In this document: positions 50,425 to 64,000 of the stretch, piece after piece | Layout: each line of letters begins with the position of its first letter | How positions within the stretch are numbered: position 1 is the first letter of the stretch | Origin: Ectocarpus siliculosus | Taxonomy: Eukaryota > Sar > Phaeophyceae > Ectocarpales > Ectocarpaceae | Length of the DNA: 64,000 nt | Direction: 5' to 3' | NCBI GenBank assembly: GCA_000310025.1 | Contig: FN649740.1 | Location: 3,959,774 to 4,023,773 of the forward strand | Notes under the pieces: model-generated | Databases searched by the model: none | Told to the model about the DNA's origin: nothing | Seen by the model: only the letters and a program-made list of their open reading frames with translations | Made by a program: the position numbers and the translations under genes

Positions 50425-51939
50425 GGGAAAACGACACAACAGGGTATACCCTGGTCGAAAAGCGACACACCTGGGTACACAGTCATTAACAGCAGTAAAT
50501 GCATTCATATGATTGGTCAGCGCCCAATTTCACCCCGGTACGTCCGAAAAGGCGCAGGGTATACCCTGCAGTGTCTACTTTTCTCACCAACTGTACCCTG
50601 TTTTCGGAAGTATACCCTGACCTGACGGGAAATGAGACCCATTCATCAATCATTTCCCCCGCAGGAATTTTCCCAATCTCCTTTTCCCCTCCAACCATGG
50701 GGTACCAAACGGCGAATCTTCCCACCCAATAACAACCATGGCAACGCGGCAGGAATCCGTTTCCGCCCCTGCCAAACAACACCAACCATCAACTCTTCCG
50801 CTCTAAATCAACAATGGCCGGGCACTACCCCAGCACAGCAGTTGTTCCGTTTGGAAACATGCACCCGCGTACAATACCCCGTGCACCACTGCTTGCTGCA
50901 GTCTATATGCGACATGCACGGGTCACGCTACGAAAGCGAGACCGATCCAGCATGGTTGACATGCATATATATATATGCATGTATGTGCCCATGATGTATG
51001 GCGCTGCGCTGAGTGGGCGGAGGAGAGAGGCAGCAACACCACACACAGACACGCCCTTGACATCAATCATGGAAGAAGGAGCGAGCGCTAACAACTCTAG
51101 CAGCAGGACTGTGTCGTCTAACTCAATCACCCTCCCTGTGCTCGCGGTGTATTTCATCGGCTCATCCCGCTGAAGCCTGACGTCTTCTTACTACATACAT
51201 TGATTGGTTGGTCGGCTTGGTCGGCTGGTAAGCGCGACCGCTGCTGTTACAGCAGTAGTAGTAGTAGTTCAAGCAACAAACACATCGCAATTGAGACACA
51301 ACAGACAACACACCCACGCACACACGGCACAGGCAGGAGGGAGTGGCAGCGCCCAACGTTACCCGTGTAGTGCTGTGTCCATACATGCATATATATATAT
51401 ATGCATGTCAACCATGCTGGATCGGTCTCGCTTTCGTAGCGTGACCCGTGCATGTCGCATATAGACTGCAGCAAGCAGTGGTGCACGGGGTATTGTACGC
51501 GGGTTTCCAAACGGAACAACTGCAGTGCTGGGGTAGTGCCCGGCCATTGTTGATTTAGAGCGGAAGAGTTGATGGTTGGTGTTGTTTGGCAGGGGCGGAA
51601 ACGGATTCCTGCCGCGTTGCCATGGTTGTTATTGGGTGGGAAGATTCGCCGTTTGGTACCCCATGGTTGGAGGGGAAAAGGAGATAGATGGGAAAATTCC
51701 TGCGGGGGAAATGATTGATGAATGGGTCTCATTTCCCGTCAGGTCAGGGTATACTTCCGAAAACAGGGTACAGTTGGTGAGAAAAGTAGACACAGCAGGG
51801 TATACCCTGCGCCTTTTCGGACGTACCGGGGTGAAATTGGGCGCTGACCAATCATATGAATGCATTTACTGCTGTTAATGACTGTGTACCCAGGTGTGTC
51901 GCTTTTCGACCAGGGTATACCCTGTTGTGTCGTTTTCCC
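50425..51939. mobile_element. 1.5-kb fold-back element with ~555-bp arms
   Basis: The left arm (50425-50985) and right arm (about 51390-51939) are near-perfect reverse complements, from outer end GGGAAAACGACACAACAGGG to an inner palindromic ATGCATATATATATATGCAT. About 400 bp of spacer has no recognisable gene. The arms carry CAGGGTATACCCTG palindromes and GGGTAC sites like those in the 3755-5192 and 5200-5838 elements, although the rest of the arm sequence differs. The mirror frames in the arms are not genes. Confidence 0.85.
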
Positions 51940-54273: not shown

Positions 54274-57200
54274 CTACCGGGTAGATGTAGTCGTCGTGGC
54301 CGTCGGTTCAGAGCATCCATACTCCCCCTCACCACGATTTCGGAGAAATGACGAGAAAAAGTCGTGGAAAAGAAGGATCGACGGTGTCGCGCGGCGAGAT
54401 GTAGCGATGCCGTGGTTGCTTGAAGGAATACCAACCGGTTGAAGTTCCAATACGTAGATCCCCCGAAGCGCGTGCGCAATGGCAGAGCTGTTTGATGATG
54501 CAGCTGCTGGCGGCTTGACGAACTCCTCCACTTGGTGGGTGGTGCCGTCCTGAAGCTCCCGTACTAGGGGCTTCGTTAATACTTTTGCCATCGCCAAGGG
54601 TGAGACGTGGTCGAGGGGGATGCAATCCTCATTGACCCATGAGCGAAGTGCGTGATAGCGGACCGCGATGTTCCTGGAGCACTTGCTGCCGTCCGTCTTC
54701 ATCTTCACCCTGAAAAGCCAGCGCGCGCCGATGATGCTGTAGGCGGCTGGAACAGAGGAGAACAGGATGAGGTCGGCGACTTCGTGGTCGTTGAGGCTGT
54801 CAAGCTCCTTGCGCATGACCTTCTGCCATTGGGTTGCTTGAGGTGAGGCCATGGCTTGCTTGCACGTGTTGGGTACTTCCACTGCTGCCGGCGGAAGAAC
54901 TTTGTCGATGCCACCAGCTCCAATATACTCGGTGTAGGAGTCGAGGGCGCCGTAGAAGGAGTTGATGGTTGCCAAATCGAGCTCTACCTTGCCGAGGGGT
55001 TGCCGTGTCGGGCTGCGGGAGGTCCTTGGTGACCGATGAGCACAGTCGTAAACTTATCTTGCCCGCGCGTGGACCTTGAGCGGCGGAGCGGCTGCGGCTG
55101 CTGGTGGCGTCGCTTGAGCTGGTGTCCGTAGGCTCGGTGTCCGTTTGCTCCAAAAGCGAAGTACCCTTGTTGATGACGTCCTCGTGCGGCGGGTCAGGCT
55201 AGAAAACATACTCGTCCGAAGTGTTGACTATAGGAGTGACAGCCGGTGGTTCCTCGATGAACGTGACATTGCAAGAGCTAGTGATGCGTCCCGTTTCCCT
55301 GTTGTAGGTGCGGAAGGAAGGGCTGTCGTTGTTGTACCCGACGAGAAGTCCTTCTCACGCCTTGGGCTGGAGCTTGGTGGTGTGTCCCTCGATCTGAACA
55401 AACGCACGCGATCCAATGACGCGCAGGAAAGGAAGATCAGCTTGCTTGCCGAACACGCGGTAGTACGGCGTGTCCCCTTGCAGTGTCTTCTGCGGTCGGC
55501 AGTGGATCAGGAACACCGAAGTTGCAGCTACTTCCCCCCACAGTTGTTTCGGTGGGAGAGCTTCGTTCAAAATGCAGCGCGTCAAGGTCATGATAGTCCG
55601 TCCTTCGCGTTCGGAGATGCCGTTCTGCTGTGGCGTATAGGGTCCGAGTGCAGGAGGCGAAATAGGGCCGATGAGGTCGGTGCTGACGACTTGAAGAGGC
55701 TGCGTGATGCCGTCGCTGTTGGCGGAGGCCTTGGCTGACTTAACCGAAGCCAAAGCAGTGTGCTGAACAGAAGCCGTTGTAGAATTATCAGCAGTAGTGG
55801 TGGGCGACGGAAGCTTGACGATCGTCACGTTGGCTCGTCCCCGCGGAAGACCCAAGCCAGAATTAGTGGTGAACGCATGTTGCGTAGCCACGCTATCGGC
55901 AGCGATGGCCAGGTCGAAGCGGAAGAGCGTGTCGCAGTTGTCGTCCGGTTGAACAGGAATTTGGAATGATCCCATGTCCAGGCATGGCGAAAGTGGTCGA
56001 AACAGAACTCCCACCCCATGCTTCGTCGCTGTCCCTCCTGAAAACAGGTGGCGCCCCAGGTTCGGTACGCAGAAGAACGGAAGGCGGATGGTGCGGGCGA
56101 CGCCGTGGCTTGGGAGACGTTGACCTTGAGAGCCCCCATGGCGGTACCTTGGAGCTTCCCTTTGCCGGCGACATCGATGACGAGCCGCGGGTCAATTTTG
56201 GTGTACTCAGTCATGTGCTTGGTGATGTCCGGCAGAAGATCGGTGTCCAGGAAGTGGCTGGAGGCGCCAGTGTCGACGGTCATGGTGAAATGATCGGGGC
56301 GGCGTGCGACGCGAGGAACGAAAACCCCACGCCGGAAGGTGGAATGGAAAGGGCCGTAAGCAGAACTCGGAGGGTGCTGCCCGGCAGGGTTGTACGCAGG
56401 AACCATAGTGGTGGATGACGGGGCGGGAACTAGTTGACCAAATTGTCCTGGTGCGGAGCGCCGTTGTAGTTGCCGTTGTTGTTGTAGTGTCCCCCGTTGT
56501 TGTTGTTGTTGTCGCTGTTGTTGTTGCCGCCGGTGTTGTTGTTGTTGTAGTGGCCGCCTTGATTGCGGCGGCGCATGTTGTTGTTGTTGCGCTGTCCTTT
56601 TCCACGTTGATGTCCAAGGTGCTGGCGACTGTTGCCGCCGCCGTTGTTTTATTGCGCGCAGCATTTCGAATTGTCATGGCGAGAAGTGTTGTGCAAAGTG
56701 CACCATTCGCCGTTCCTGCCGCCGGGAGCGTGTCCCGCCGGCTTCTTGCCGTGTTTCTTGAAACAACCTTGTTCTTCATGGCCATTCTTTCTACAAAACG
56801 TGCAGAATTTGTTGGTTGATGCCGCCATTGCGGAAGAGCGGCCCTTCGCAGCGCGCGAATTTTGGCTGTCGTTTTCCACTCGATTGGCGTGCATGTTGCA
56901 CATAATAATCATCGCTTCTTGTAGGTCGAAGTCGTCTTGCGACTCAGCTTGGTACTTGATCCGTTCATAGTAGGGCGGCAGCTGGTCCAAGATGATCGAT
57001 AAAACATGTCGTCGTCGATTGCTTTCCCCATAAGAACCAGCTCATTTCGCTTGTCGGCCAAACGAAAAAAAAATACTTCCGGGTCTTCATCCTCCTCCGT
57101 GGTCATTGCCCGGAATTTCTTCACCAAAATATCTTTCCGCACGCGCGTGTTGTTTTGATACATTTCAAGAAGACCACGCCACGCTGCAATGCCGTTGGAC

Positions 57201-57697
57201 AAAAATCCCGGTTTACCTCGGAACTTGTTGACGAAAGTCTGAAGAGCGCCGGCAGTAGCCATGTACAGGAAGTCTGCCAGGAAGGTGTTGTCACGGTGCC
57301 AGGCTCGAATGTCGTCCAGGTTGCTGATGATGCTGATGTCGTCCGTCCACAGAATAGAGGAAGAGACGTCCACCGGATCAGAAGAAGTCGCTATTATACG
57401 AGTCGCTGTAGCTGAAGCGGTGTACCAGAGAACGGTCGATGCGAGTGCGGCGACGGGTTGAACAAGGAGCTCGGCTTTACTCGCGGAATCTTCCTCTTCG
57501 GCTACCTTGCCGGCGTCGCCGTCTTTCGCAGCTTCCTTCGCGTCCGGTGCAGACTCGCGGGCAACAATGTGAAATACGTGCGGTCGCCTCATGCTGATGG
57601 TACCCAGAGCATCGGCTTTCCATTTTTCAAACCCCTGTCCATCAAATTTTCCGAGTTTGTCAAGCAGGTCGTGAGCGTCCGTCGTGGGCTGATCCAT
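54274..57697 (-). mobile_element. Ty1/copia retrotransposon relic, internally deleted
   Basis: Minus-strand order: Gag from ATG 57697 (KFDGQGFEKWK, helical core), shifted in frame near 57000, then the zinc knuckle C-x2-C-x4-H-x4-C (CTFCRKNGHEEQGC, about 56800). Protease DTGASSHF is near 56280. Integrase VVSTDLIGPI runs straight into PYTPQQNGISERE: the segment with the first two catalytic acidic residues and the DNG motif is missing. The RT start (SPQATQWQKVMRKELDSL, then ARWLFRVKMKTDGS) joins directly to the RNase H end (IAVRYHALRSWV, then LTKPL); the YxDD core is gone. Several frame changes occur. It is a dead, deletion-derived copy. LTRs were not identified. Copia elements are long-term residents of brown algal genomes. 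Confidence 0.85.
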
Positions 57698-58575
57698 GAT
57701 GACGATGCGGAGGACAGGTCGAACTAGACAATGACGTGGGCGTGCGCAGTACTAGACGATGAAGTGGGCTACTAGTGAAGCCCAAGTCGTCTATGCCGCC
57801 GCAGTCCAACTGCTACGGTCGTATCCCAACGCAGCAGGAACGTGCGCGGAAATTTCTGGAATATGCCAGGAAGGCTCACGCTTGATGAGTACCTGGTGTA
57901 GACGACGATGTAGGCCGATAGAGTGGCAAGCGCCTCTGATCTACGTGCCTTTTTCTTGGCTAAGCTGCTGAAGAACCTGCCGAACTAACGGCATGTATGT
58001 GTACCGTTTACCTGATGTCCCGTCGAACTCAGGTCTTTCCTTCTCGAAAAAATTCCACGAAAAAATGCGGAGAAAATACGATGTCTCTGAATAACGATCC
58101 CCCTATGGACGGGTAGACGTTGAGGTTAGCTTGTTGAACGTGTAGAACTTACAAAGCGCGTAGAACGTGAAATGGACGACCCAGATGAAGTCGTGGAGGA
58201 GGCCGACGAACTTGATGGAAGTCCTCACGTGCCTCGAAGAAGAAGTGCTGGCCAGCAGTAGATTCTTCGGTAATTTTGTAATTCTTCGGCGCGAGCGCCG
58301 GCTCTGACCTCGAATTTCTCGCAGCACCGACCCCCCGAAGAAAATTGCGGACCCTGACGACTTCGATCTTCCCGCAAAAAAATAGTCAGTCCGCACGACG
58401 CAAGGTAAACTCAATCCCAACCAACGAATCTTTTCTTCCTACATACGCTGCCCGAGATCAATCGACATCTCCACAGGGTGCGGAACAAGCTTCTACCAAC
58501 CGTTAAACAACGCATGCATCCAGAGGAAATAAACAAGCCGCTATTACCACCTCCTGTAAGGAATGTCAGCCGACC
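57698..58575. other. Possible copia 5' LTR/leader and spacer
   Basis: This lies directly upstream (in minus sense) of the copia Gag start, so the 5' LTR and primer-binding site should be here. I could not find matching terminal repeats or a clear primer-binding site. No gene recognised; a (GTT/CAA)-poor, unremarkable sequence. Confidence 0.35.
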
Positions 58576-59651
58576 TCACACTTTTGGTGCCACTGCCGCC
58601 TTGACACTTGTACCTGCACTTTTGCAGTCTTCCACGACCAGATTTGCCACGACAGGACTCGCGCTCTCCAGCTCGGGTCCAAACACCAAGACGTGCTTAC
58701 TTTGCATGGAGATTTTGCCCCAGACCTGGACTACCTCGTGGCCGACATCACCCGAATACCAGGACGACCACCACGACGGTTTTCGTCGTTGCTGAGTCGT
58801 CCATGTTACCGTCAGCGATTTCGTGCCGTTCAGCGGCAAGCATATTTGAGGCGCGCTTCCGGTGGCGGATGTACCCGGCACGCTAAACGTGAAAACCTCA
58901 GTGCTGGGCACGTCTACGAGCGTTCGTCCCACTTCTCCCCCGGCGTTTGCCCCGCTTGGGGCAAATCCAAACTTCGCCTTTGCAACGTTTACGAAAGGCT
59001 CCCTCCGTGCGGCACCCCAGCAGTGGACCACGAGGTTCCGCGTGCCAAGATTGACGAAGTGGTAGTGCGACTCTCTGCTCTTGAACCTCAGTTTTGGCAA
59101 AGGGACTGGTTCCGCACAACCGGCTCCCACGTCAATCATTTCCCTGAGGGCAAATTCGCAAAAGTGCTTAACCGCCACCTCCAAAACGAAAACACCCCCC
59201 TCGATTTGGATGTTTCCCCCAGTAATCGGGACCCACTCTGAATCAGCGTCCTCTCGTTTGACAGCCGAAAAGACGCACCCAAGGTGGGCACGGTACGCCA
59301 CCTCAGCGTCATCGCGGCTGCCGCGCTCGGAGCCCGATTCCATTGAGTCCACGTCTCCGACGGGAAACCGCAGGAGGAGCGGGGGGTTGAATATCTCTCC
59401 AGCACCGGCGACGCATGTCAGTACGGGATGTAGCAGACACTGCTTTCCGTCCGCTGTTTCGGCTGAGCCCGAGCACAGGCCGAGGCCGATCAGGGCAGGA
59501 ACAGTTCTCCCCAGGTTGGGCACCTTGAGCTGAAACTCACACCCAGGGCTTTGGATAGTCTCCTCGTGATCTCCGAAAGACCAAGCTAACACGTTCCCCT
59601 TGAAATCTGCGAGTCGGGCGGCGATGAAGTAAAAGGTCGGCACAGGGTAAG
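58576..59651 (-). CDS. ZU5-like domain protein, terminal exon
   Basis: About 358 residues open from acceptor GAGGCAG at 59652 (phase: two bases complete a split codon) to the stop at 58576. The apparent first Met is a GTG codon and an in-frame TGA lies upstream of the acceptor, so this is a downstream exon. The first half reads CLLHPVLTC, then IFNPPLLLRFPVGD, and ends WVPITGGNIQIEGGVFVLEV with HFCEFAL. That matches the ZU5 pattern (L-x-P, F-x-x-PV-x-L-x-x-P at the start; H-F-S-x-F at the end). ZU5 domains occur in ankyrins, UNC5 and some LRR receptors, where they mediate protein contacts. The second half (HYHFVNLGTRNLVVHCWG and on) is unassigned. It lies downstream of minus-strand LRR exons that end in a compatible phase. 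Confidence 0.55.
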
Positions 59652-61896
59652 CTGCCTCTCAAACTCTAGGCAGTGCACTGGGCGATGTTGTGTTTCGGGC
59701 TGCCCGCAACGACGTACCTGATACGGCTGAAATCGTGGTGCAGGTGTCATCTTCGTTCTTGTCAAGGCCGAACGGGCGGGATTTCATCGGACTGCCTGCT
59801 TGCGGTAATCGGTAGAGGAAGGACGTCGTGTAAGGAGAAATCTCGGCACGATCTCTTCAAGATCATTCCGTTAACTCCCTCTTAAGTGTGCGAATTGCCC
59901 CAGGACATCGTGCAAGCGGGATCGGCCCAAGGGTCCTTCCTTGCCTAAGCCGTTTCAATGATACCGTCTGATGGCCTCTGTTGGCTATTAACGAGGTACA
60001 AAAGAAGCATCCCAAAACAAACTCGGGGGAGCAGAAAAAGGCCCTGCCCACGATCCCAGCACCAGTGTGCAACAAACACAATTGTCTCTTCCTCTCGCTG
60101 AACTCCGCCTTCCCTGCTGCTGTAGTTGTCGGGGACTAGGCGGAACACGCAAAAAATGTTTACACCACCGTAGATTTAAGAGTATCCGTGAAGCGTTCAA
60201 TTCCGCTTCATGGGAGGCCCACGTGCTTAGCGTAGACCTGACGACGGGGGAGGGTAAGCAACTCCACAGAGTTCAGAACCGTGTGCTTCATTTTTGCTAG
60301 ATCTGTAGATATCCATCCGGCTTTCGTCGGTCTAGAAGGAGCCGAGGTCTACTACTTGAGCCCTGTCTGGAAGTCTGACGCGTGTAGCAGGTGGGTACCA
60401 AGATATAAAGCGCTTCATAACAAGAAGTGTGCGCTATCTGTGCCGACCTCAAAAGCCAAATTCAATGGCTGCTACGGACAAAAATTGTTCCAATGTACCT
60501 CTGAAAATGAGGTGCATAACAAGAAAACTTCCCGCATTCATAAATCTCCACGCCTCCGCGTTGCTCCTGGCCTGTTTTAGGACGGTTCTAATCCAGCCCA
60601 CAGTGCTCAGCAGACGCATCGATGCGCCGACAGCCAAGCGACCACAAACGCGGGTTGAAGTCTTACTTGTCTTCAAACTTGTGCCAAGAGTGGTGGTGGT
60701 CATCCCGCTCGTCGTGGAGGTCGATCCGTCATAAGCACTCGGTGCACCCTCGCATTTCTTTGTCGTCGACCCATCATGTTCGGCTACAGTTGCCGCGTTA
60801 CCTTGCAAGGGCCCTGCTGTGACAGAGAAAAGACGCGCGGATCATCCTGGGAGGAAAGAACCTTACGTATTCTGTGTGAAGAGGGAATATTTCGAAGAAT
60901 CCAGGTGCGGACTTTGTGAGGGCCGTTTCTAATGCGATCGGAAATCACAAACATTCGAATGTGTATTTTTTCAATTCTGACTGAGGAGCCCGTTTCCTCG
61001 TACCATTGGTGATCCAAAAGCGGGGGGATAATGAGCCAAAGATGGCGTATTTCCCCATCTAGAACTTCGATCATAAGCGCACAAATAGAAGATGGGCCAT
61101 GTACAGCGAGTTCTGACCGTAGCGCGCTTTTCAATGGTTCCAGAAATTCTGGACCGCCACGCTGCCATACTAACCGCTGACATTTTACGATCGTCGACCA
61201 TGGACTGTTCACACCACGACACGACCAAAAAAGACGCCGTTCGTCCGGAGCCTACAGAGACAGCTTTTCAGTGCACATCGATGCACCACATTTTCAACTA
61301 CCTGTGCCGTTGTGCAGATGACGACGAAACGGGACTGCAGGAAGGCCGAGTGAAAATCTGAGCAAACATATCAAAATGTCGACCAGAGGTCTCACCAACG
61401 CTGGACGTGGAAACCCCTTGTGGATCAAACAATGAGACCAGCTTAATGGTGCCGTCCGCGGTTATGTCCGTGCCGCACGGTGGAGGGTAATATACATATC
61501 CCTTACCAGTGGTCGCGGCTGCTGCGCTATGCGTTTCATCGTTCCATCAAGTCGTCCTGTCATCACTGCAGAAGGTCTCAGGCAACCGTGGTTGCAAAAA
61601 CTGCAACACAAACGATCGCTGTTGTGTCGAAAGTGTGGAAACGCACTCCAAAAAAAAAAATAGCTTAGAAATGGAAAATACGATCCCCGCATTATTGGCG
61701 GCGAATGATTGGTCGAACTAACGCAAGAGTGTGGTTGCGGAGCAGTCTGGTAAAAAAAAGCTTATTTTGAGGGGGGTGCCAATAGCCTCCCAGGGCGGCG
61801 CAAAAAAACGGTGTTTTGCCATCAGTTACACGCCCGTAACTTCGCTCAGCAGGAAAATCTTCCTCATCCGGGCACTCTAGCCCCGACCGGTCACAC
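59652..61896. other. Interval upstream of the ZU5 exon
   Basis: If an LRR-ZU5 gene exists on the minus strand, this is intron or contains unrecognised exons. One minus frame (60784-61212, 142 residues) has plausible composition but no domain I know. No LRR exon was found here by eye. Confidence 0.35.
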
Positions 61897-62087: not shown

Positions 62088-62159
62088 CACTGAACTTGTT
62101 GCCGCGGAGTTGCACGGATACCAGGTAGACGAGCTTCAAGAGGTGTGCTGGCACAGATC
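62088..62159 (-). CDS. Single-LRR exon (72 bp), minus strand
   Basis: Acceptor ACACAG before 62159, donor GTAAGG after 62088; 72 bp, phase 1. The repeat reads VPAHLLKLVYLVSVQLRGN-K-FSG with Leu at the expected spacing. Phase allows direct joining to the 61897-61968 exon. Confidence 0.7.
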
Positions 62160-62399: not shown

Positions 62400-62772
62400 A
62401 AAAAGCACGCTGACGTCACGATGGCTCCGATTTCTGCTAGTCGCGGGACCGTTTTTGCAGGACCATTTTTTTTTTTTTCACTTCAAATCATATCTCACTG
62501 CACTAGTGCCGCTTACATAAACCCGTGGTCACACAGGAAGACTCCTCTCTACTCTCCCGTCCTGCGGTACGTTGCCTACGATTTTAATGCGAGAAGAGTT
62601 CAGCATTCTCTTCCCTCTGGGTACACACGTACACACGAACTAGCGCTATCTACTTCCAGGAACGGAAGCGAGAGAAAACCTCAAGTTGCAAGAAAAGCTC
62701 GGTTTCGCCGGGATTCGAACCCCTGACCTAGCCACCAGAAGGTTACGACGATACCAACTAGACCACCGGGGC
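62400..62772 (-). mobile_element. tRNA-derived SINE
   Basis: Read on the minus strand from 62772: GCCCCGG start, A-box TGGTCTAGTTGG (62753-62764), and about 32 bp later a perfect B-box GGTTCGAATCC (62711-62721). The acceptor stem cannot close and the T-stem is mismatched, so it is not a functional tRNA. A plausible body follows towards 62400. The 3' end was not located. It sits immediately upstream of the degenerate plus-strand LRR exon at 62782 and may have replaced its acceptor. Confidence 0.65.
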
Positions 62773-62781
62773 AATTTGGGG

Positions 62782-62853
62782 TGTCAATACCCACGGAATT
62801 AAGAACCTTCAATAAGCTGGAGGCGATTAACCTGTCCAGTGACCGGCTTTCAC
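62782..62853 (+). pseudogene. Degenerate LRR exon, plus strand
   Basis: A 72-bp window with good LRR content (IPTELRTFNKLEAINLSS, then D-R-L-S) in the same phase as the other exons, and a possible donor GTAGGA. The bases before it are GG, not AG, and the tRNA-derived SINE abuts it at 62772, so splicing into it is unlikely. Confidence 0.55.
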
Positions 62854-63050
62854 GTAGGAGGCAGGAACTTGCAAATACGATCATTCTGACACCAGTGAGA
62901 CTGGCGCCCCTGCGTAGCAAAAGATGTCCCGCGAGTTCCGCAATTGTGAAATTTCGTACTCGCCTACGCATACGCGGGATTCATCGGTGGAATCAGGCCG
63001 AGAAAATAATCCTTCACCACGACGCACTCAAATCCGCCATAGATACTCAC

Positions 63051-63122
63051 CTGTGAGCGTGTTGCTGTGTAGACTGAGCACCTGCAGGTTCCTGAGCTGT
63101 CCTAGCAACGCTGGGATTTCAC
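63051..63122 (-). CDS. Single-LRR exon (72 bp), minus strand
   Basis: Acceptor TGCAG before 63122, donor GTGAGT after 63051; 72 bp, phase 1. It encodes G-E-IPALLGQLRNLQVLSLHS, then N-T-L-T-G, a near-ideal LRR. Part of a ~500-bp unit (with hairpin and plus-strand LRR exon) that is repeated 500 bp downstream. Confidence 0.8.
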
Positions 63123-63180
63123 CTGCACGAATTTGGAATGAAGAGAAGTTCGAAAAAAAAAAAAATCAAGAATACTGCAA

Positions 63181-63234
63181 ATCTCCGTAGATCTTGTCCC
63201 ACCCACTAGTAGGCGGGACAAGATCTACGGAGAT
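63181..63234. repeat. Perfect 20-bp hairpin, copy 1
   Basis: Arms ATCTCCGTAGATCTTGTCCC (63181-63200) and its exact complement (63215-63234) with a 14-base loop containing ACTAGT. Two further G-C pairs extend it past one mismatch. It lies between the minus exon at 63051-63122 and the plus exon at 63314-63385. Confidence 0.95.
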
Positions 63235-63313
63235 CAGTTGTTTTCAAAATAGAGAAACGGGAGAATTGTTATTTTTATTCCCCGCTTGATTTGTATCGCA
63301 CTCTCGCTTACAC

Positions 63314-63385
63314 GCCCTATCCCGCCAGAGCTCGGGACCTTCGCAGCCCTGCAACGCCTCGATATTGGCTACAGCGAGCTAAGCG
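63314..63385 (+). pseudogene. LRR exon with mutated acceptor, plus strand
   Basis: A 72-bp LRR unit (IPPELGTFAALQRLDIGYS, then ELSG) with donor GTGGGT and phase 1. The acceptor reads TTACAC where its paralogue at 63816 has TTACAG, so the exon should be skipped. Coding sequence is otherwise intact. Confidence 0.65.
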
Positions 63386-63550
63386 GTGGGTCATGGCGCG
63401 CAATAATGGTATTTGTAATAATTTCCAGGATGAATACCACCAACGCATCGGCAGGATTCATGCATTCACCACTTCTCGGCGATGAATCGGCGATGTTCAT
63501 CCAGATCAAGGCCAAAATAAATTGAAACTACTGTCAACATAAAAAGCTAC

Positions 63551-63622
63551 CTGTGAGCCGGTTGGTGGAAAGCCACAGCTCCCGCAGCTCTCGGAGATCT
63601 CCCAGCTCCTGCGGGATAGGGC
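63551..63622 (-). CDS. Single-LRR exon (72 bp), minus strand
   Basis: Acceptor GTGAAG before 63622, donor GTAGCT after 63551; 72 bp, phase 1. It encodes G-P-IPQELGDLRELRELWLST, then N-R-L-TG. This is the minus-strand member of the second ~500-bp unit. Confidence 0.75.
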
Positions 63623-63679
63623 CTTCACAAAAGATACAGCGGGGGCAATTACAACGGGATTCATTTTTCAATATCATCG

Positions 63680-63737
63680 ATCTCCGTAGATCTTGTCCCA
63701 CCCACCCACTAGTAGGCGGGACAAGATCTACGGAGAT
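63680..63737. repeat. Perfect 20-bp hairpin, copy 2
   Basis: The same 20-bp arms as 63181-63234 (63680-63699 and 63718-63737) with a loop 4 bases longer (an extra CCCA-type repeat). Flanking sequence on the right (CAGTTGT, TTCAAAATAGAGA, then CGCTTG) is also shared with copy 1. Confidence 0.95.
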
Positions 63738-63815
63738 CAGTTGTGTTCAAAATAGAGAGGCGGGTCAATAGTTTTTCTATTGCCCGCTTGGTTTGTATCG
63801 CACTCCTGCTTACAG

Positions 63816-63887
63816 GCCACATCCCGCCGGAGCTCGGGAACCTCGCAGCGCTGCAACGCGTCGACCTTGACGGGAACGTGCTAAGCG
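63816..63887 (+). CDS. Single-LRR exon (72 bp), plus strand
   Basis: Acceptor CTTACAG before 63816, donor GTGAGT after 63887; exactly 72 bp and phase 1. It encodes G-H-IPPELGNLAALQRVDLDG, then N-V-LSG, a typical plant-type LRR. It is the intact paralogue of 63314-63385. If a plus-strand LRR gene is active here, most of it lies beyond the right edge of the window. Confidence 0.8.
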
Positions 63888-64000
63888 GTGAGTCATAGCG
63901 CACAATTTGGTATTTGTGATCATTTCCAGGTCGAATCCCACCAACGCATATACGGGATTATCCACAGCATCATCAATAGGCAAACACCGCAAAAACATTT

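Follow-up and report, generated by a model that had tools for sequence, protein, structure and literature searches.

LRR exons of a receptor gene class in Ectocarpus siliculosus probably form tilings of single-exon modules with inverted ends

The window analysed here is a stretch of 64,000 nucleotides of the Ectocarpus siliculosus genome (G000:C15:3959774-4023773), taken from one assembly of 189 Mb in 492 contigs. Towards its right end lies an array of 72-bp LRR exons, most of them carried in short modules that meet at short joints (positions are those of the window):

62088-62159, minus strand: divergent LRR exon GSVPAHLLKLVYLVSVQLRGNKFS outside the modules, AG..GT intact, weak score of 9.6 (L001:2062-)
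62782-62853, plus strand: decayed antisense copy of an LRR exon, weak score of 11.4, no AG acceptor (L001:2756+)
62968-62969: joint core GC, tail-to-tail
62970-63206, minus strand: module 1, with LRR exon 63051-63122 (GEIPALLGQLRNLQVLSLHSNTLT)
63181-63234: hairpin 1, with 20-bp arms and a 14-nt loop, where two similar 5' module ends meet
63207-63208: joint core TA, head-to-head, at the centre of hairpin 1
63209-63444, plus strand: module 2, with LRR exon 63314-63385, antisense and decayed (acceptor AC, not AG)
63445-63446: joint core GC, tail-to-tail
63447-63705, minus strand: module 3, with LRR exon 63551-63622 (GPIPQELGDLRELRELWLSTNRLT)
63680-63737: hairpin 2, with 20-bp arms and an 18-nt loop, where two similar 5' module ends meet
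63706-63711: joint core TA plus four extra bases (CCACTA), at the centre of hairpin 2
63712-63945, plus strand: module 4, with LRR exon 63816-63887 (GHIPPELGNLAALQRVDLDGNVLS), antisense and intact
63946-63947: joint core GC, tail-to-tail; the following module (minus strand, exon L001:3983) extends beyond the window

A sequence-only reading of this DNA had described four phase-1 LRR exons on alternating strands around a duplicated hairpin. The four 72-bp frames at 63051-63122 (-), 63314-63385 (+), 63551-63622 (-) and 63816-63887 (+) were indeed all open and in intron phase 1. The splice sites that it had listed were present in three of the four exons and incomplete in the exon at 63314, which has no AG acceptor (TTACAC followed by GCCC). 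Its perfect 20-bp arm, ATCTCCGTAGATCTTGTCCC, was recovered in inverted copies at 63181-63200/63215-63234 and 63680-63699/63718-63737, and the period of about 500 bp was borne out, corresponding to two modules of 234-259 bp. The array reached well past the interval 63051-63887 of that reading. Scanning the window for joints (score >14) gave five at 62967-63945, with scores of 24-32, and five weak, joint-like matches elsewhere, with scores of 14-18. The minus-strand gene perhaps has a fixed distal repeat in the exon at 62088-62159 (-).

The stretch at 62706-62775 (-) resembled a tRNA and had a GGTTCGAATCC-like box by eye; ARAGORN made no call there and found no tRNA in the window. It is perhaps a tRNA-derived SINE adjoining the array. 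ORFs at 54277-57751 (-) resembled a Ty1/copia-type retrotransposon, mostly by eye, and the ORF at 55358-56191 (-) had a weak SH3_retrovirus match, below the cut-off. For the 360-aa ORF at 58579-59658 (-), Pfam gave no match at E≤0.1. An ORF beginning REMRPIHQSFPPQEFS occurred in nearly the same form on the plus (50626) and minus (51250) strands, forming an inverted duplication of about 0.4 kb at 50626-51738 of the window.

Across the genome, the 20-bp arm was found at 51 places at ≤2 mismatches, and its reversed control at 2. The analysis used twenty stretches, of which 19 surround places of the arm and one (L002) connects two of the others; this choice favours arm-bearing arrays. The sequence-only reading had suggested a genome-wide check for enrichment of the arm next to LRR exons, and when this check was run, 50 of the 51 copies lay ≤250 bp from an LRR exon, so that the arm is not a MITE scattered regardless of such exons. 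The lone copy >250 bp from any LRR exon lay in L017. With respect to the nearest exon, the arm stood on the 5' side in the same direction in 34 of 50 cases, on the 3' side in 13, and on the 5' side but reversed in 3; mostly it was 52-106 bp upstream of exons. Hairpins with ≤2 mismatches per arm numbered 7 in the 20 stretches (5 of these between head-to-head exons), as against a shorter inverted joint, described below, in 154 of 187 gaps. The suggestion that the hairpin is a general linker or recombination signal was rejected, because the 20-bp arm is missing from the majority of joints and is also found as a single copy and at 3' ends. We take the arm to be a variant of the module end, and the hairpin to be secondary, formed where two such ends face each other.

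To call exon copies, the 20 stretches were scanned with a relaxed profile. A total of 216 copies of the 72-bp, single-phase, one-LRR exon were found in 18 of the 20, and 175 of them had AG, GT and an open frame. Both strands were used almost equally (106 plus, 110 minus), in agreement with the earlier proposal that single-LRR exons are orientation-free units, and the strand switched in 107 of 198 neighbour pairs compared to 103.1 under permutation. Without eight possibly doubtful copies scoring <20, the numbers were 102 plus and 106 minus, with 102 switches in 190 pairs (98.9 expected). Exon orientation in mixed arrays is thus apparently random.

Median gaps between exons were 192 bp head-to-head, 138 bp tail-to-tail, and 161 and 170 bp in tandem; being additive, these values fit one module with two fixed flanks. 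For BLAST matches of ≥90% identity (n=303), end positions peaked at 70-110 bp on the 5' side of the exon and at 60-80 bp on its 3' side. In the full set of 2960 matches, many stopped ≤20 bp from the exon, and less similar modules mostly matched little beyond it, which means that only young pairs reveal the module ends. The two ends could be located in 110 copies, with length quartiles of 222, 235 and 257 bp. The module accordingly consisted of one 72-bp phase-1 LRR exon preceded by about 93 bp of intron and followed by about 70 bp, with a median length of 235 bp. At the right end of three arrays (L003:5309, L004:7016, L005:3299) there was an exon-like LRR copy, APSPLELENLAALQILNLAGDQLR, with no GT donor, which possibly marks an array edge common to the three.

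Of 198 gaps, 187 were testable for joints (60-400 bp, no N). The joint consisted of two inverted half-sites (approximately RTNGGCGGGA, read inward) around a short core. A joint score >12 was reached in 160 of the 187 gaps vs. 2.4 of 187 in shuffles, and 154 also passed a per-half cut, leaving 33 without a clear joint. When the model was retrained on dinucleotide shuffles, a score >14 was found in 2-4 shuffled gaps and in 125 of the 187 real ones. The core measured 2 bp in 107 of the 154 joints (GC 79, TA 20, other 8) and 3 bp in 23, so that GC or TA accounted for 99 of the 107 two-base cores; cores were mostly self-complementary. TA cores were found at 11 head-to-head joints vs. 1 tail-to-tail joint. 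The left and right half-sites were independent of each other at each position tested, which suggests that every end is compatible with every other.

Modules were not flanked by equal cores more often than expected (32 of 44, compared to 30.7). A classical target-site duplication, looked for in this count, gave no signal; such a duplication could have been erased by later rearrangement. At the same end of a pair of 100% identical modules, one copy had TA as its core and the other GC. The core is therefore best regarded as belonging to the joint and not as inherited with the module. The consensus of the tandem joint (≤3 mismatches) occurred at 15 places in the genome, all within about 0.5 kb of an LRR exon, and its reversed control at none. 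The perfect palindrome CCCGCCAACGCGTTGGCGGG was tried as a genome-wide site and dropped: it gave 2 places (≤2 mismatches, both strands) vs. 1+1 control matches, a count that is uninformative because the half-sites of a joint usually differ.

The joint model was then applied to held-out stretches, L021-L036, picked from LRR places in the genome (some for a nearby Roc match), and L037, a gene flank. Joints were present in 5 of 5 gaps of the mixed-strand array L023, 9 of 9 in L024, 12 of 18 in L027, 5 of 8 in L029, 2 of 4 in L030 and 1 of 1 in L033, as well as in 7 of 9 in L026, which is not fully independent of the training set since it is part of the same array as L011. The one-strand arrays L021, L022, L031, L032, L034, L035 and L036, whose introns were mostly longer, had a joint in 0 of 5 testable gaps, and the nearly one-strand arrays L025 and L028 in 0 of 5 and 1 of 5. 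Because few one-strand gaps were testable, whole stretches were also scanned (score >14). The held-out mixed arrays contained 59 joints in 37.6 kb (15.7 per 10 kb), the one-strand arrays 4 in 29.8 kb (1.3 per 10 kb), the nearly one-strand arrays 6 in 13.4 kb (4.5 per 10 kb), three NB-ARC-linked repeat loci 2 in 29.7 kb (0.7 per 10 kb), and L002 2 in 7.3 kb (2.7 per 10 kb), the last being weak, joint-like matches. Joint density in held-out mixed arrays was thus 12-23 times that in one-strand LRR arrays or NB-ARC-linked loci.

The NB-ARC-linked loci, which we take to be NB-TPR genes, also differed in the orientation of their repeats. BLAST pairs in the three loci were 94 direct and 0 inverted, vs. 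36 direct and 29 inverted in three LRR loci, counts in which the pairs are not independent. A TPR-exon motif scan in the NB-ARC loci returned 3 stray matches. Five of the one-strand arrays (L021, L022, L034-L036) looked like a second class of 72-bp LRR exon arrays, with exons on one strand, mostly longer introns and few joints; L021 and L022 contain Roc matches.

How precisely the modules end was examined in young pairs, which were drawn from few families and are not independent. Among 83 unfiltered module pairs ≥90% identical over ≥100 bp, the match reached to within 5 bp of the 5' end in 79, of the 3' end in 69 and of both in 65. In 50 pairs covering ≥85% (100 ends), identity was 0.89-1.00 over the last 15 inside positions (0.79 at the 16th), and it was 0.92 at the last inside base vs. 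0.50 at the first outside base, beyond which only the conserved half-site letters agreed well. Across 59 pairs of ≥85%, the neighbour differed at 111 of 118 ends and was the same at 7. For the 50- and 59-pair sets, the joint model set the module ends and a coverage filter was applied to the pairs, a procedure biased towards end-to-end matches. One 227-bp module occurred in 100% identical copies on the plus strand of C26 and the minus strand of C4, whose flanking sequences were unrelated on either side. A few rearrangements broke away from joints. The modules can be described as mobile units bounded by terminal inverted repeats.

For ten arrays the sense of the gene was inferred, in seven from a downstream Roc match (three of these below the curated cut-off) and otherwise from an N-terminal cap exon recognised by eye and with our own motif. 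On C11 the cap (4812357, +) and Roc (4822709, +) agreed on sense, and the 9.9 kb fetched between them held 12 exon copies, 6 of them backwards. A COR family search gave a single match, on C17, and was of no help. Near the window array there was no Roc match among the matches listed; its minus strand was taken as sense because a cap exon lies at ~C15:4.043 Mb. No LRR exon was found in the ~15 kb between the two, which we infer to belong to one gene.

Sense copies were intact more often than antisense copies. Counting a GC donor as intact, 72 of 76 sense and 47 of 64 antisense copies were intact (p=6e-4); without scores ≤20 and copies cut by N, the numbers were 71 of 72 and 47 of 61 (p=1e-4), and for the seven arrays with firmer sense they were 54 of 55 and 34 of 47 (p=2e-4). 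In L001, the clear minus exons were intact in 5 of 5 cases and the plus copies in 1 of 4. Backward exons thus appear to be unused and decaying, and an antisense copy probably serves only after flipping or copying, so that the claim of the sequence-only reading that either strand supplies interchangeable repeats does not hold in the form given. LRR profile scores of intact exons were equal (medians 56.7 sense and 56.1 antisense, p=0.97), giving no sign of selection beyond the loss of splice sites and frame.

We consider it probable that the LRR regions of one receptor gene class, some of them adjoining Roc GTPase domains, are tilings of single-exon modules with inverted ends that are shuffled in the germline. 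Modules would be moved or duplicated within and between arrays in the germline by an end-specific process of cutting or copying and joining, akin to the action of a transposase or recombinase, and the symmetric module ends would accept either orientation. Because the phase is the same at both ends of the exon, each module inserted in sense would add one repeat and keep the frame. Antisense modules, if neither flipped nor replaced, would stay in introns without function and degenerate, and selection would retain sense modules.

That the core belongs to the joint argues against transposase insertion and recombinase exchange in their simplest forms, and a core that differs at the same end of an identical pair is disallowed by a strict 2-bp-overlap recombinase. 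It is rather unlikely that a dedicated enzyme recognises the joint as a symmetric site of about 22 bp and cuts, copies or inverts modules, such that repeats are gained, lost, swapped or flipped (antisense off, sense on), possibly within an individual's life. A genome search with PF00239 gave one match at E≤0.001 (L038:617-2378, in G000:C16:5120000-5124500), with no link to the LRR arrays. This match adjoins a TnpB-like ORF with zinc-ribbon cysteines (by eye), presumably the arrangement of an IS607-type element.

Two other explanations deserve some weight. The modules may be exon-bearing MITEs, i.e., non-autonomous units with terminal inverted repeats, mobilised by a transposase in trans, each insertion going into an existing module end and duplicating 2 bp of target. 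The inverted ends, the narrow length range, the copies on many contigs and the 2-bp core would all suit such elements; the lack of an equal-core excess across modules does not, and with all 15 consensus places beside LRR exons, no insertions elsewhere were seen with the consensus. We regard this as possible, at less than even chances. Alternatively, homology-directed shuffling (gene conversion, template switching or unequal crossing-over) may have landed on short shared joints, with no dedicated enzyme. Half-sites common to most ends, duplicates between loci, variable cores and irregular junctions would be expected from it. Breaks, however, fell on the core and not anywhere within the shared half-site of ~10 bp, and the three NB-ARC-linked loci of the same genome had direct pairs only, which makes this second explanation somewhat unlikely as well.

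Programmed or somatic recombination, flipping or assembling modules within an individual in a V(D)J-, VLR- or invertase-like manner, seems improbable. Symmetric joints, random orientation and the many antisense exons still intact would be compatible with it, and PMC11378527 reports an earlier proposal of somatic recombination in the LRR/TPR receptors of brown algae. However, the PF00239 search gave no enzyme linked to the arrays, somatic recombinant ROCO loci have not been reported according to PMC11378527, and the decay of antisense copies fits slow germline change. That intronic RNA hairpins steer how LRR exons are alternatively spliced, with the inverted copies in the DNA being incidental, is highly improbable: the arm does lie mostly 52-106 bp upstream of exons, and alternative splicing of LRR exons is described for brown algal ROCO genes (PMC11378527), but the 20 stretches held only 7 hairpins, and both random orientation and joint-precise breakpoints would be left unexplained. 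An assembly artefact is hardly credible, since, although repeats of 90-100% identity can misassemble and some arrays contain runs of N, one joint motif is common to many contigs, sense and antisense copies differ in decay, and the NB-ARC repeat loci lack inverted pairs.

LRR exon shuffling in brown algal ROCO genes was reportedly described by Zambounis et al. in 2012. Teng et al. (2024; PMC11378527) describe brown algal ROCO genes with one LRR per 72-bp exon in a single phase (called phase 2), intense shuffling of LRR exons, alternative splicing, and LRR-only sequences as a possible 'reservoir'; they state that recombinant loci and a recombinase have not been reported. A term search of the main text gave 'orientation' and 'hairpin' 0 times and turned up nothing on antisense exons, on the ends of modules or on joint sites. 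Among the matches listed in a literature search, titles and abstract openings pointed to no other paper on exon orientation or hairpins; Zambounis et al. (2012) may mention antisense exons. The modules described here thus share with ROCO LRR shuffling the 72-bp single-phase one-LRR exons, the shuffling and the idea of a reservoir, and differ from it, as far as that term search of PMC11378527 goes, in the antisense exons, module ends and joint sites.

The rebuilding of LRR receptors by recombination in brown algae is an open proposal with no defined DNA site in the portions of the literature found. The present work defines the unit (a one-exon module of ~235 bp) and the sequence of the joint, predicts the breakpoint to single-base resolution, and offers an internal control in the decay of antisense copies, so that a direct test with reads from individuals is feasible. 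If end-specific joining is true, it would constitute a form of exon shuffling that is indifferent to orientation.

The donor cassettes of lamprey and hagfish VLR genes occur in both orientations. In the lamprey, 72-nt LRR cassettes flank an incomplete gene, providing a stock for LRR receptors, and the genes are completed by a gene-conversion-like mechanism (PMC11335541). The modules resemble these cassettes, as described there, in carrying 72-nt LRR units that may serve as a receptor stock. They differ in that they hold complete exons, splice sites included, and have inverted ends and joints. Integron cassettes and the crossover sites of invertases are likewise small segments with short symmetric sites, and the geometry of serine-invertase sites, half-site plus 2-bp core plus half-site, resembles that of the joints. 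Unlike these, the modules are eukaryotic exons, the core changes at the same module end, and no recombinase linked to the arrays came out of the PF00239 search. MITEs and transposon-borne exons are short units with terminal inverted repeats and duplicative spread; in contrast, the modules have no target-duplication signal, their joints are concentrated in LRR arrays, and they are tiled end to end. Within the same genome, the NB-ARC-linked loci, in which repeat units adjoin an NB-ARC domain, differ from the LRR arrays in having no inverted pairs and a low joint density.
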